Of a DNA stretch of 47,152 nt, positions 33,461 through 47,152 are shown piece after piece; the stretch's first letter is position 1; each line of letters begins with the position of its first letter. The position numbers and the translations under genes were made by a program. Source of the stretch: an uncultured Anaeromyxobacter sp. (lineage in GTDB: Bacteria > Myxococcota > Myxococcia > Myxococcales > Anaeromyxobacteraceae); contig CAIVAR010000181.1 of NCBI GenBank assembly GCA_903904005.1, positions 1 to 47,152 of the forward strand, given 5' to 3'. The notes beneath the pieces were generated by a model, which saw only the letters and a list, made by a program, of their open reading frames with translations, did not search any database and was not told the origin of the DNA.

Positions 33461-33530
33461 GGGCGGGATTTCACCGATCCGTCACCGTTCCTTCGTGCGC
33501 GAGACGCACTGCCGGTGCAGGATCTTCCTC

Positions 33531-34121
33531 GTGAGCGAGCTGCGCGATACCGCCTCCCTGGCCCCGGCAGCGCCGGAGCTTTCCCTTCGGGTGGGGCGCC
33601 TCGCACGGCTTCTCGCGATCGACGAGCGGCTCCTCGTCGCGGCGCGCCGGCTCCACGGACCGTGGCGCACGCGCCTGGCGAAGGCCCTCACCCGCGCGGG
33701 CAACACCTCGTCCTGGACCCTGGCGGTCCTCGGCCTGGCCGTGGCCGGCGCACCCTTCACCGTCCTGGGGGCGCGGCTCGCAGCCGGCACGCTGCTCGGG
33801 ACACTCTTCTCCCAGACGCTGAAGCGGTCGCTCCACCGCCCTCGCCCGACCTCCGCCATCGTGGGCTTCGAGGCCCTGGCCGAGAACCCCGACCGCTTCT
33901 CCTTCCCGTCCGGCCACACCACCGCCGCCTTCGCCGCGGCGGTCGCGCTGGCCGGGGCTCCGTTCGGCATCGGGCCGGCCGCGCTCCTGCTCGCGCTGGG
34001 GATCGGGATGTCCCGCGTCTACCTGGGCGCCCACTACCCGCTCGACGTGGCCGCGGGCGTGGTGCTGGGAACGGTGGCCGGGGCGCTGGCGCGAATCGGG
34101 CTGGGGAGCGTCGGGTTCTAG
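33531..34121 (+). CDS. PAP2 superfamily phosphatase
   Basis: 196 residues, GTG start preceded by AGGA. Inner-membrane, with about five helices. The three acid-phosphatase motifs are complete: KRSLHRPRP, PSGHTTAAF, and SRVYLGAHYPLDVAAG. Such proteins dephosphorylate phosphatidic acid, undecaprenyl diphosphate or similar lipids. The stop codon TAG shares its CTAG with the stop of the convergent transglutaminase gene. Promoter not seen; the 70-bp gap after the methyltransferase gene has no clear terminator. Confidence 0.9.
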   Translation: MSELRDTASLAPAAPELSLRVGRLARLLAIDERLLVAARRLHGPWRTRLAKALTRAGNTSSWTLAVLGLAVAGAPFTVLGARLAAGTLLGTLFSQTLKRSLHRPRPTSAIVGFEALAENPDRFSFPSGHTTAAFAAAVALAGAPFGIGPAALLLALGIGMSRVYLGAHYPLDVAAGVVLGTVAGALARIGLGSVGF

Positions 34122-43000: not shown

Positions 43001-43342
43001 GCGAAGCTCCTCCGGGTAGGCGAACGGCATCTTCTGGCACCGGTCGTCGACGAAGAAGTCGAAGGGGTTCACCGGCCGGATGTCGACGGCCATCTCCACG
43101 CGGATGGCCAGCTCCGGGAGGCGCGAACCCTTCGGGAAGGTGACGTGGGCCACGTGGTTCCCGGTGGGATCCCGCTGCCAGCGGACCGCGCCGGGCTCGC
43201 TCACCCGAAGGGCGTAGGTCTCGATCCGGGCCCTCGCGTGGTGGGCGGGGCGGAGGCGCACCTGGTGCGGACCGAGCGCCGCGGGGCGCGGGAAGCGGTA
43301 GACCGTGTCGTGCTGGAGGAGGAGGCGCATGGGGGCGACCAT
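40016..43342 (-). CDS. Transglutaminase-DUF2126 fusion (amidoligase), first gene of operon
   Basis: 1108 residues. Residues ~1-290 are bacterial transglutaminase: start MRLLLQHDTVYRFPRP (from Met5), Cys186 in GRGSCRDS, His235 in DLHAWAEVYL, Asp251 in GLDATSG, so the triad is complete. Residues ~330-1100 are DUF2126: GGEPTFNSRLYPEAPEW, FRRENLFLIPGD, VTPDPGVLEVNVQPTSGG, GSGGGNHITLGG, LVDVAGNGHRAEISIDKLF, GLVELRAFEMPPHP. I keep the ATG at 43342 because AAAGG lies five bases before it; Met5 (43330) has no ribosome site. The last residues are acidic (EPEEDEEDG). It starts the minus-strand operon, opposite polyphosphate kinase, 200 bp away. A proteolysis- or transpeptidation-plus-ligation role is inferred. 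Confidence 0.94.
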   Translation of the reverse strand: MVAPMRLLLQHDTVYRFPRPAALGPHQVRLRPAHHARARIETYALRVSEPGAVRWQRDPTGNHVAHVTFPKGSRLPELAIRVEMAVDIRPVNPFDFFVDDRCQKMPFAYPEELRPELEPFLDTGDPSLAGGPLLDGFLAKLPASGKTVDLVVELNRLVSEQTRYVIREEAGVWTPEETLAQGRGSCRDSAVLLVAALRSRGLAARFVSGYLVQLTDEGMIPDEPRGVGHDVVDLHAWAEVYLPGAGWLGLDATSGLFCGEGHIPLACVARPALGAPITGTSDVGADAFSFELRVGRLGHEARPTTPYPEETWQALLEAADRADRVLTDEGLTLTVGGEPTFNSRLYPEAPEWRTAALGPTKWEQGIALAGELRDRMAPGGVVLRRQGKWYPGESLPRWALDVVGLRDGTRLWSGGGERAVASPEAAEMLARAIAGQLGVRPEAAIPAFEDPWQYVRDETDLPPGVNPLKADLADGEERRRLARVLDHGLGTPVAWALPLSRVEGAWHTDTWEFRRENLFLIPGDSPVGLRLPLKSLGGPLPAVAPPEPFYVPDPRVEEIAEAHRLEEKARAKAAGPQREADRRAPAPRLPSVRTALCVEPRGEDLFVFLPPVPTGADFVELVRAVDHAARETGLDVRLEGYPPAWSPEVIRFSVTPDPGVLEVNVQPTSGGRECAAQIDQVFDAALHVGLHSEKYMLDGRQEGSGGGNHITLGGPRPLESPFVVRPDLLASLVTFVQHHPAMSYLFTGLFVGPTSQAPRVDEARHDALYELEIALARLADRSQPAQPWQGDWLLRNLLVDVAGNGHRAEISIDKLFDWRSPHGRQGLVELRAFEMPPHPRMAAAQAILARALVAAFAREPYAHDLVRWGTELHDRFLLPFWLWRDMEDVLDFLEARGVGLPREAYRPFVEFRCPVVGRLQVGGVSVEIRNALEPWPVLGEEPGAGGTARFVDSSMERVEVRVEGLETERFDVLVNGLAVPLRATGTAGEHVGGVRFRAWAPESSLQPHLGIHHPLRFDLLDRWARRSVGACAYHVWHPEGRGYEAAPLTRFEATARRAARFTEEGPLPWPTRAGATRPHPEFPNTLDLRRYGGDRPMPEPEEDEEDGR

Positions 43343-43542
43343 ATTGCCTTTGCAAGACGCCTGCCTCTTTCCGGCGACGATCGACCCCGATCGGCCGGGT
43401 TGCCTGAAACTGCTGCAAGAAATCCAGGCAGGCAGGTGCCCGACTACCGGACAGACACCCCCTCGGAGGGGGCAAGCCCCCCATCGTCACACTCCCGTCA
43501 CCAGGGGTGTGGTGAAGTGGGCCCTCACGCCAGGGAGGTCAC
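43343..43542. promoter_or_regulatory. Divergent leader between the amidoligase operon and ppk1
   Basis: 200 bp without a gene. On the plus strand, TCGTCAC-ACTC-CCGTCAC (43484-43501) has the 7-4-7, 11-bp-period layout of a Pho box (consensus CTGTCAT), with GTCA conserved in both halves. Just upstream, CCCCCT (43458-43463), AGGGGG (43467-43472) and CCCCCC (43477-43482) can pair in two mutually exclusive hairpins. Three GCAGG-like direct repeats lie near 43428. The ppk Shine-Dalgarno AGGGAGG is at 43532-43538. Confidence 0.45.
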
Positions 43543-45414
43543 TTGCGACTCGAACAGGAACTCTCGTGGCTTCGCTTCAACCGCCGGGTCCTCCAGCAGA
43601 CCCGGCGGCCCGACTTCCCGCTCATGGAGCGGGTCCGGTTCCTCGCCATCTGGGCGACCAACCTCGACGAGTTCTTCGCGGCCCGGATCTCGCGCCCCTT
43701 CCTGGAGGAGCGGGGCACCGCCAATTACCAGCGGTTGCTGACCGAGGCACGCTCCCAGGTCGACGGTGCCAGCGAGACCTACCGGGGGCTGCTCGACGAG
43801 CTCGAGGAGCACTCGATCCGGGTGATCCCGGTCTCCTCCCTCTCCCGGGAGGAGCTCGACTACTTCGGGGCCTTCCTGGCCGAGGAGGTGGCTCCCCGGA
43901 CCGACGTCCTGCGCGCCGACGCCGTGCGCGAAGTCCGCACCGAGGCCCTCTACTTCGCGACCGGCCTGGGCGTGCTGGAGCACCTGGTCCGGCTCCCCGA
44001 CAGCCTCCCCCGCCTGATCGAGATTCCGGGGCGGGACGGCACCTACGTCCGGCTGGGCGAGCTGCTGCGCCTGCGCAGCGACCTCTTCCTCGACGGCCGG
44101 GACATGGAACTGCACGAGCTGCGGGTGATCCGGCTCGCCGCCATCGACCAGCTCGGGCTCGACTGGGAGGATCTCCCGGCGGCGCTCGAGACCCGGCTCG
44201 ACGGCCGGCCCAGCCACCTCGAGGTGGAGAAGAACTTCCCACCGCACTGGGCCGAGTCAATCCGCATCGCGCTCGGGCTCGAGGCGCAGGAGGTGTTCTG
44301 GGTGGAGCCTCCGCTCGACCTTCGCATGGTCGCCACGCTGGTGACGAAGGCGCCGGCCCGCTTCAAGTTCGACGTGCTGCGGCCGTGGCTCATCCCCGGC
44401 TTCTCGACCAACCCGTTCGCCCGGATCGCGCAGAGCGACCAGATGATCTACCACCCGTACCAGGGGTACGATGCGGTGGAGGACTTCGCGCGGGCAGCGG
44501 CCCGCGATCCCGAGGTCACCGCGATGCGCGCCACCCTCTACCGGGTGGGGGACGACAACGTCCTCGCCGAGTCGCTCATCGAGGCATCGCGCGCGGGCAA
44601 GGACGTCGCGGTCCTGCTCGAGGCCCGGGCCCGTTTCGACGAACTGCAAAATCTGGAGTGGGGCCTGCGCTTCCAGAACTCGGGCGTCCGGGTGCTGCCG
44701 CTGCCCTCCCGGAAGGTCCACGCCAAGGCCATCTGGGTCCGGCGCGGGCGGCGCGAGTTCGTCCACCTCGGCACCGGCAACTACAACACGCGCAACTCCA
44801 GGCTCTACACCGACTTCTCCCTCTTCACCGCCGACGCCGGCATCACCCGGGACGTGAAGGCCTTCTTCGACGCGCTGGAGGCGCGCAAGCCCCCGCGGAT
44901 GACGGAGCTCCGCACCGGCCCCGCCATCCGGCGGCTGCTGCTGGAGCGGATCCGCGCCGAGTCGAACCCTCGCGGCCACGTCATCTTCAAGTTCAACCAC
45001 GTGACCGATCCGCCAGTCCTGGCCGCGCTCCGGAAGGCGGCGAAGGCAGGGGCGCGGGTGGACCTGGTGGCCCGGACCACGCTCACCGAGATCTCATCGG
45101 GGGTCCACGCGCGCAGCCTGGTGGGGCGCTTCCTCGAGCACGCCCGGGTGGCTGCGTTCCGGAACGGCGGGCGCTGGCTCGTCTTCGCCGGAAGCCTCGA
45201 CGCCATGCCGCGAAACTTCGACCGACGCTACGAGATCTTCTTCCCCGTGAAGGCCCCGGCTGCCCGGGACATGGTGCTCTCGGAGCTGCGTTCCCAGGTG
45301 GCCGACGACGTGAACGCCTTCGAGCTCAACGACGACGGGAGCGAGACGGCGCGCTGGGGGGGCGACCTGAACGCCCAGCGCGCCGACGACCACCGCCGGA
45401 ACCGACGGAGCTGA
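43543..45414 (+). CDS. ppk1: Polyphosphate kinase 1, short divergent form
   Basis: Polymerises ATP gamma-phosphate into inorganic polyphosphate, reversibly, on a histidine intermediate. 623 residues, about 60-80 shorter than typical PPK1. TTG start at 43543, the only possible one since an in-frame TGA lies at 43513-43515; GGGAGG precedes it. N-terminal LEQELSWLRFNRRVLQQ, FLAIWATNLDEFFAARI; phosphate-tunnel regions YHPYQGYDAVEDF; ARFDELQNLEW; catalytic His393 in RKVHAKAIWV with LGTGNYN; second His533 in GRFLEHARV, and GSLDAMPRNFDRR. Core motifs are intact, so activity is expected. It lacks the first ~15 residues and some mid-region loops of longer homologues. Possibly phosphate-controlled (see leader). 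Divergent from the amidoligase operon. Confidence 0.88.
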   Translation: MRLEQELSWLRFNRRVLQQTRRPDFPLMERVRFLAIWATNLDEFFAARISRPFLEERGTANYQRLLTEARSQVDGASETYRGLLDELEEHSIRVIPVSSLSREELDYFGAFLAEEVAPRTDVLRADAVREVRTEALYFATGLGVLEHLVRLPDSLPRLIEIPGRDGTYVRLGELLRLRSDLFLDGRDMELHELRVIRLAAIDQLGLDWEDLPAALETRLDGRPSHLEVEKNFPPHWAESIRIALGLEAQEVFWVEPPLDLRMVATLVTKAPARFKFDVLRPWLIPGFSTNPFARIAQSDQMIYHPYQGYDAVEDFARAAARDPEVTAMRATLYRVGDDNVLAESLIEASRAGKDVAVLLEARARFDELQNLEWGLRFQNSGVRVLPLPSRKVHAKAIWVRRGRREFVHLGTGNYNTRNSRLYTDFSLFTADAGITRDVKAFFDALEARKPPRMTELRTGPAIRRLLLERIRAESNPRGHVIFKFNHVTDPPVLAALRKAAKAGARVDLVARTTLTEISSGVHARSLVGRFLEHARVAAFRNGGRWLVFAGSLDAMPRNFDRRYEIFFPVKAPAARDMVLSELRSQVADDVNAFELNDDGSETARWGGDLNAQRADDHRRNRRS

Positions 45415-45955: not shown

Positions 45956-46071
45956 TCCACCCCTCGAACGCGTACCCGGAGCGGAGGAGCTCGGCGCCCC
46001 TGCGATCTCGGGCGGCACGGTCGGTATCCCGTGCCGCACCGGAGGTGACGTGACGGCGACGTTCCCCGGGA

Positions 46072-46222: not shown

Positions 46223-47152
46223 ATGACGAAGTCCCGAACGAAGCCCGGCTGGAGCACCGCCATCCTGCTCGCCCTCCTCGTCGCCGCACCGGCCGCGGCC
46301 CGTGCGCACGACGGACACGACGACGCGGACGACGGCATCGAGACTCGCGAGGAAGCCGCCCGACCCGTCGAGTGGGAGGACGAGAGCGCCCCGCGCTCCG
46401 AGCGCGTGGCCGTGAGGATCCTCGGCATCAACGACTTCCACGGCCAGCTCTCGGCCGGCAAGCTGGTCTCGAAGCGGCCGGTGGGCTCGGCGGGCGTGCT
46501 CGCCGCCTACCTTCGCGCCGCCTCCGTCGCCACGCCCTACCGGACCCTGATCGTTCACGCCGGCGATCACGTCGGTGCCTCCCCGGCCTCGTCGGCGCTC
46601 CTCCAGGACGAGCCAGCCATCTCCTTCCTGAACCAGCTCGCCAACCGGCACTGCCGCCACCTCGAGGCCGAGGACCGGGGCGGGATCGGGGGCCGGGAGG
46701 AGGACGAGGACCGGTACGAGGGCTGGCTGGACCCGCGCTGCAACCTGGCCGGCACGACCGGCAACCACGAGTTCGACGAGGGCATCGTCGAGCTGCAGCG
46801 GCTCCTCGGCGGCGGCAACCACGGCAACGGGCCGTTCCTCGAGACCCACTGGCGCGGAGCCCGCTATCCCACGCTGGCTGCGAACGTCGTCGACGCGGCC
46901 ACCGGCAAGCCCGTGCTCCCGCCCTACGTGGTGAAGCGCGTGGACGGCGTTCCCATCGCCTTCGTCGGCGTCGTCCTGAAGGAGACGCCGACCGTGGTGA
47001 CCCCGACCGGGGTCGCCGGACTCCGCTTCCTCGACGAGGCCGACGCGGTGAATTCCTACGTCCCCGAGCTGCGCCGACGCGGCGTGCACGCCATCGTCGT
47101 CCTCATCCACCAGGGTGGCAGCCAGAAGAGCTACACGGGGGTCACCGATCCG
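46223..47152 (+). CDS. Secreted 5'-nucleotidase/metallophosphatase, 3' end cut by window edge
   Basis: 310 codons are present and the frame is open at the window end. Signal peptide MTKSRTKPGWSTAILLALLV with cleavage near AARAHD; a histidine/aspartate-rich segment follows (HDGHDDADDGIE). The calcineurin-like metal motifs of the UshA/5'-nucleotidase family are clear: RILGINDFHGQLS, VHAGDHVGASPASSALL, TTGNHEFDEG and AIVVLIHQGG. An acidic insert (GREEDEDRYEG) lies between motifs 2 and 3. A periplasmic or secreted nucleotide or phosphoester hydrolase. The 5'-nucleotidase C-terminal domain lies beyond the window. Ribosome site GGAGG before the ATG. With ppk nearby, a phosphate-related role is possible. 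Confidence 0.9.
   Translation, partial: MTKSRTKPGWSTAILLALLVAAPAAARAHDGHDDADDGIETREEAARPVEWEDESAPRSERVAVRILGINDFHGQLSAGKLVSKRPVGSAGVLAAYLRAASVATPYRTLIVHAGDHVGASPASSALLQDEPAISFLNQLANRHCRHLEAEDRGGIGGREEDEDRYEGWLDPRCNLAGTTGNHEFDEGIVELQRLLGGGNHGNGPFLETHWRGARYPTLAANVVDAATGKPVLPPYVVKRVDGVPIAFVGVVLKETPTVVTPTGVAGLRFLDEADAVNSYVPELRRRGVHAIVVLIHQGGSQKSYTGVTDP

Follow-up and report, generated by a model that had tools for sequence, protein, structure and literature searches.

What controls the ppk1 gene in an uncultured soil relative of Anaeromyxobacter? The window (the whole stretch of DNA that was analysed, 47,152 nucleotides long) belongs to a 4.56-Mb draft genome and carries a ppk1 gene, opposite which a transglutaminase/DUF2126 gene is divergently oriented. 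The leader between the two genes contains a pair of short direct repeats and, just upstream, three tracts of C or G. A preliminary description had read the repeats as a Pho-box-like element and the tracts as an attenuator switch, i.e. two hairpins sharing their middle strand. We argue that the leader carries a PhoB-type activated promoter for ppk1, a reading of the sequence to which we give a probability of about 0.88, and that the tracts probably play no part in it as RNA. The features on which the argument turns are these, all on the forward strand:

43458-43482 (+): C/G tracts from which the two exclusive hairpins were proposed to form (CCCCCT at 43458-43463, AGGGGG at 43467-43472, CCCCCC at 43477-43482), judged to lie outside the mechanism from folding, pairing counts and conservation.
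43484-43501 (+): PHO-type box of two direct repeat units, TCGTCAC (43484-43490) and CCGTCAC (43495-43501), separated by ACTC and thus with an 11-bp period; from the sequence and from genome and genus comparison.
43506-43518 (+): GGTGTGNTGAAGT, a conserved block that contains the -10-like TGAAGT (43513-43518); from the genus leader alignment and genome counts.
43525 (+): predicted transcription start, placed by inference only at about 7 nt past the -10-like element.
43533-43539 (+): Shine-Dalgarno-like AGGGAGG ahead of the TTG at 43543, presumed from the sequence.
43543-45414 (+): ppk1, polyphosphate kinase 1, 623 aa, TTG start; from the ORF list and Pfam polyphosphate kinase domains.

The geometry first described holds. 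The TTG at 43543 opens a 623-aa reading frame with Pfam polyphosphate kinase domains, so the gene is indeed ppk1, and the nearest kin of its product in named records are in Anaeromyxobacter/Anaeromyxobacteraceae draft genomes. TCGTCAC-ACTC-CCGTCAC is present with its period of 11 bp, both stems can be drawn with the middle strand common to the two, and 60 bases separate the last tract (43482) from the TTG. Called gene edges are approximate throughout, since genes were called by a home-made codon score.

One line of evidence on the box comes from the genome around it. The exact core CGTCAC-N5-CGTCAC occurs only twice in the 4.56 Mb, against none for a reversed-pattern control: once as the ppk1 box, its sole match within the window, and once at C85:1080-1096, 66 bp upstream of where pstS is called to start. 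The ppk1 gene and the pst operon lie on different contigs of this genome. When one mismatch is allowed there are 38 sites against 15 for the reversed control, and 7 of the 38 (two of them overlapping at pstS) fall on the 35-kb pst contig, i.e. on 0.8% of the genome, where variants of the box precede two alkaline phosphatase genes. Of the 30 among these 38 sites that were viewed in context, called genes contain 16 and the remaining 14 are intergenic; some of these 14 precede genes without a phosphate link, such as dnaA and a rubrerythrin gene. Looser matches within the window are uninformative, as those with up to two mismatches (7 found, 10.3 expected) stay at chance level. The ppk1 box thus shares its units with the phosphate promoters of its own genome, exactly at pstS and as CGACGC-N5-CGTCAC at phoB. 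Since an identical or similar word stands before phosphate-uptake and phosphate-sensing genes, polyphosphate synthesis probably goes up when the cell runs short of phosphate. The Pho-box reading is strengthened by the exact core at pstS in this genome and two relatives and by the variants at phoB and at the two alkaline phosphatase genes, and PhoB-type control of ppk1, as predicted from these shared sequences, is well supported.

Three further genomes of the genus, four in all, show that the box and its surroundings are conserved. The exact core is found 9 times in the four genomes, against 2 for the reversed control, and 6 of the 9 sites precede pstS or ppk1 (G000 2/2, G001 2/2, G002 1/1, G003 1/4). 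It precedes pstS in the genome of the window, in G001 and in G002; the PstS gene of G003 has a box with one mismatch, and of the other three exact sites of G003 one precedes a TAtT-family gene, one precedes the gene of an HD-domain response regulator and one falls within a called gene. In a gap-free alignment of the four ppk1 leaders, anchored on unit 1, this unit is invariant at 7/7 positions and is thus kept in the three other leaders, unit 2 is invariant at 2/7 positions (kept in two of the three others, lost in L010), and GGTGTGNTGAAGT at 12/13. The C/G tracts are invariant at 4/25 positions and the region further upstream at 1/33. The exact GGTGTGNTGAAGT block is present once per genome in all four, always before ppk1, its reversed control being found twice in all.

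The spacing between box and -10-like element is shared with other phosphate promoters. TGAAGT lies 11 nt past the ppk1 box, as does TTAAGA in the four phoB promoters, and the pstS promoters of G000 and G001 have a candidate -10, TACACC, 10 nt past the box. The genus ppk1 leaders therefore combine a conserved box position with a -10-like element 10-11 nt downstream, L010 with one good unit. A clear -10 at this distance is absent from the two alkaline phosphatase promoters and from the other ppk1 promoters of the family. TGAAGT itself is GC-rich and a poor -10; a scan of 43200-43700 for sigma70-type promoters found 0 sites, which is uninformative because 0.0 were expected.

Under this promoter anatomy, phosphate limitation would lead the PhoR-like kinase to phosphorylate the PhoB-like regulator, which would then bind head to tail on TCGTCAC-N4-CCGTCAC and substitute for a -35 element. 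The bound regulator would recruit RNA polymerase to TGAAGT, 11 nt downstream. We predict that transcription starts near 43525, hence downstream of 43482, leaving a leader of about 18 nt with no room for an attenuator, and that ppk1 responds to phosphate.

Candidates for the remaining parts of such a system are encoded in the same genome. The pst operon reads PstS-PstC-PstA-PstB-PhoU, each member scoring above its NCBIfam cut-off. The best match to PhoB is encoded at C25:97528-98190 and is followed by the gene of a PhoR/PnpS-like kinase. PhoB is the best NCBIfam hit of the former protein at 260 for a cut-off of 296, a cut-off that just 2 of 14 control genomes pass; for the kinase the best hit is PnpS, then PhoR, both under their cut-offs (256 vs 334 for PhoR). 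The phoB promoter itself reads CGACGC-N5-CGTCAC, 11 nt, TTAAGA in 4/4 genomes of the genus.

One might ask which regulator reads the box. A second PhoB-like regulator (241 bits, C85:311-982) is encoded directly before pstS in the genome of the window, and Myxococcus xanthus is reported to have several PhoR-PhoP pairs (PMC4415409). The box could thus be real and yet be read by another OmpR-family regulator, such as the one at C85, or by several, so that the signal would not be phosphate through this PhoR alone. We regard this as unlikely, as the best-scoring PhoB adjoins the kinase gene and has a box in its own promoter throughout the genus; besides, such a change would alter the reader of the box and not the regulon.

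Two observations concern the neighbourhood of phoB and phoR. In the phoB promoter (L140 7482-7523) and in those of three relatives, TTAAGA is separated by a few bases from a downstream GTG consistent with the start of the protein, which suggests that phoB may be leaderless. After phoR, in L140 9422-10833, a PHO-like box CGTCACCGATCCTTCAC precedes an open gene of 436 codons for which neither Pfam nor NCBIfam gave a match at 0.001; three relatives carry similar boxes after phoR.

According to the attenuator proposal, expression is switched in the leader RNA of ppk1 by two mutually exclusive hairpins built from the C/G tracts. The tract arrangement is unusual, as the window has one C5..G5..C5 triple where 0.08 would be expected over both strands; the tract columns have a mean pairwise identity of 0.51, compared with 0.30 further upstream; and the whole 218-nt intergenic region folds somewhat more stably than its shuffles (z -2.04, 5/200). 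Stem 2 gives a weak hint in the same direction: 80% of its cells are paired, against a shuffle mean of 64.8%, with 3 both-side changes across the four species, but on four sequences only this value is reached by 53/500 shuffles. Pairing in stem 1 is about that of shuffles (62.5% of cells vs 61.4%), and the four genus sequences do not conserve a pair of mutually exclusive stems. The 36-nt tract piece also folds like shuffles (z -0.24, 74/200 at least as stable), as does the isolated piece in four species, where 11, 18, 29 and 14% of 300 shuffles are as stable, and the 106-nt leader favours a different fold. No terminator stem with a U run was found before the gene: the scan of 43200-43700 gave no terminator-like site on the + strand and one on the - strand. 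Rfam 15 gave 0 matches at gathering score in the window. The tracts lie upstream of both the box and the -10-like element; with a start near 43525, as inferred from the conserved promoter anatomy, 43458-43482 would not be in the RNA, and under this promoter model the tracts would act, if at all, as DNA. Hence we set aside the attenuator part of the preliminary description as unsupported, and we consider an RNA switch at this place very improbable. The nearby hairpins are probably not part of the phosphate switch, although the second inverted repeat might conceivably have a role at the DNA level.

To see how far the box extends in the family we used a PSSM trained on 13 boxes (3 of pstS, 4 of phoB, 2 of alkaline phosphatase genes and 4 after phoR, none from ppk1). 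These boxes were chosen for their resemblance to the core and the threshold of 13 was set after leader scores had been seen. The case for the ppk1 box rests on the exact core, its pstS partner, conservation and spacing, and not on PSSM score. With 14.7 the ppk1 box has the highest score of the window, just under the 15.4-25.3 that the 13 training boxes span in leave-one-out scoring. We then scored 18 ppk1 leaders from the rest of the family, the genus being excluded; L028, L035, L036, L038 and L039 were omitted since the 5' end of the gene is missing, and the start pieces L040-L042 stand in for three genes with missing 5' ends. A same-strand box at 13 or above is found in 8 of these 18 leaders and not in the other 10, counts to be read knowing that related genomes are not independent. 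The boxed leaders come from four of the five other genera (0/2 in the fifth). The same threshold is reached by 7/1080 Markov shuffles, 0/60 coding pieces, 1/18 leaders on the minus strand and 3/218 pieces of the window, the ppk1 box being among these pieces. A first leader null, built from the upstream regions of genes neighbouring the pst and ppk1 loci (15/73 at 13 or above), proved to be contaminated by pst neighbours and was set aside. Among PstS-family leaders, half (14/28) have a same-strand box at this threshold and half (14/28) do not.

Exact matches give a similar picture. In 24 family genomes the exact core has 69 sites, against 10 for the reversed control, with 34 at pstS or ppk1 and 35 elsewhere. 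At pstS, 14 sites precede the gene and 10 follow it closely; at ppk1, 5 precede the gene on its own strand, 2 precede it on the opposite strand and 3 follow it closely. This placement took 39 of 43 PstS-family rows (the four weakest omitted) and 23 of 27 ppk1 rows. For the nearest ppk1 outside the genus (L009/L022, same contig, 67% identity), the boxes lie on the strand opposite to the gene: L009 carries three CGTCAC units with an 11-bp period at 1875-1904, between an HlyIII-family gene and ppk1, and L022 is the single minus-strand leader at 13 or above. At the family level, boxes before divergent ppk1 genes thus add to the Pho-box reading.

That the box is a chance resemblance in a GC-rich leader is likewise very improbable: the two-mismatch matches in the window stay at chance level and shuffles attain a score of 14.7 by itself 7 times in 943,040 positions, roughly one hit for every 135 kb of a single strand, but the other exact core of the genome lies before pstS, the fixed spacing to the -10-like element is kept in the genus, and the box is enriched before ppk1 across the family.

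The family also raises the question of how old this wiring is. In all four genus genomes PPK1 has a single match. This is a short form with 85-87% identity inside the genus, 67% to the copy in G014 and 33-38% to the full-length matches found elsewhere in the family; a PPK1 match is absent in 3/24 family genomes. The starts of the four genus ppk1 genes are taken to be TTG or GTG. The only PPK1 found in the genus is thus the short form, yet it is PHO-boxed like many full-length ones, which suggests that either the box was recruited repeatedly or the promoter was retained. We see about even odds that PhoB wiring of polyphosphate synthesis holds in much of Anaeromyxobacteraceae and has outlived a change of the enzyme.

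How does this promoter compare with known ones? In PhoB promoters of Escherichia coli the box replaces the -35 element and the -10 follows shortly downstream. The unit there is CTGTCAT, whereas in the putative box here it is YCGTCAC, with a GC-rich -10-like element. PHO boxes are described as 11-nt direct repeats whose consensus depends on the species, and ppk as induced in most bacteria (PMC4415409); the E. coli box, like the ppk1 box, has two 7-nt direct repeats 4 nt apart, in units of 11 nt (PMC4415409). In Desulfovibrio vulgaris the PhoB box, (c/t)GT(n)AC, is likewise built of short direct repeats, 4 bp apart, but the repeat is of 6 bp instead of 7 nt (PMC3333781). The closest parallel is Streptomyces, where PHO boxes precede ppk, which is under Pho control by PhoP, i.e. 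the same gene with an operator of the same kind (PMC7866108); the unit is GTTCACC in Streptomyces coelicolor (PMC4415409). Conversely, ppk1 of Caulobacter crescentus rises in phosphate starvation without PhoB (PMC11208175), whereas the ppk1 gene studied here has a PHO-type box. The Streptomyces ppk gene is linked to pst, whereas the present genome has ppk1 and the pst operon on separate contigs. Among the titles and abstract openings of the open-access literature on Pho control in Anaeromyxobacter, Myxococcus xanthus and Myxococcota we found no PHO-type ppk1 promoter for this family. Pho control of ppk is already known from Streptomyces; for this family it was not encountered within the literature covered.

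The ppk1 box yields a family-specific consensus, YCGTCAC-N4-YCGTCAC, by which the members of the phosphate regulon could be listed in uncultured relatives of Anaeromyxobacter. It also leads us to expect that ppk1 expression in these bacteria rises along with phosphate uptake. A joint rise would fit polyphosphate synthesis buffering the inflow of phosphate after starvation, as proposed in Caulobacter, where ppk1 acts in the recovery from phosphate starvation (PMC13250506).

Other PHO-like sites may point to further members. A PHO-like array at 33468-33497 (+), with PSSM scores of 12.8 and 13.9, overlaps the position at which a PAP2-superfamily phosphatase gene (33495-34121) is called to start, and may mark a second member of the Pho regulon in the window. 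The second-highest PSSM site of the window (14.4) lies at 46044-46062 (-), on the strand opposite to a gene starting at 46223; Pfam gave no match for this gene, the start of which, we presume, resembles a 5'-nucleotidase motif. Neither of the two Ppx-GppA genes of this genome has a box at a score of 13 (best 9.4). In G009 a PHO box lies between ppk1 and a Ppx-GppA gene (L029 3879-4012), and G008 and G012 have sites at similar positions after ppk1.

On the side of the divergent gene, the minus strand of 43343-43445 also folds more stably than most shuffles (z -2.92, 2/200). Both this predicted fold and that of the whole intergenic region pair GCCTGCCT with AGGCAGGC (43359-43366 and 43426-43433), outside the region of the box and tracts. 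A sigma54-like site, GGCAGGCGTCTTGCA, lies at 43351-43365 (-), close before the transglutaminase/DUF2126 gene, and all four genus leaders retain it in the form GG-N10-GC; the pattern GGN10GCA by itself occurs about as often as expected by chance. The start of the transglutaminase/DUF2126 gene is more likely the ATG at 43330, because the ATG at 43342 is absent in L007.
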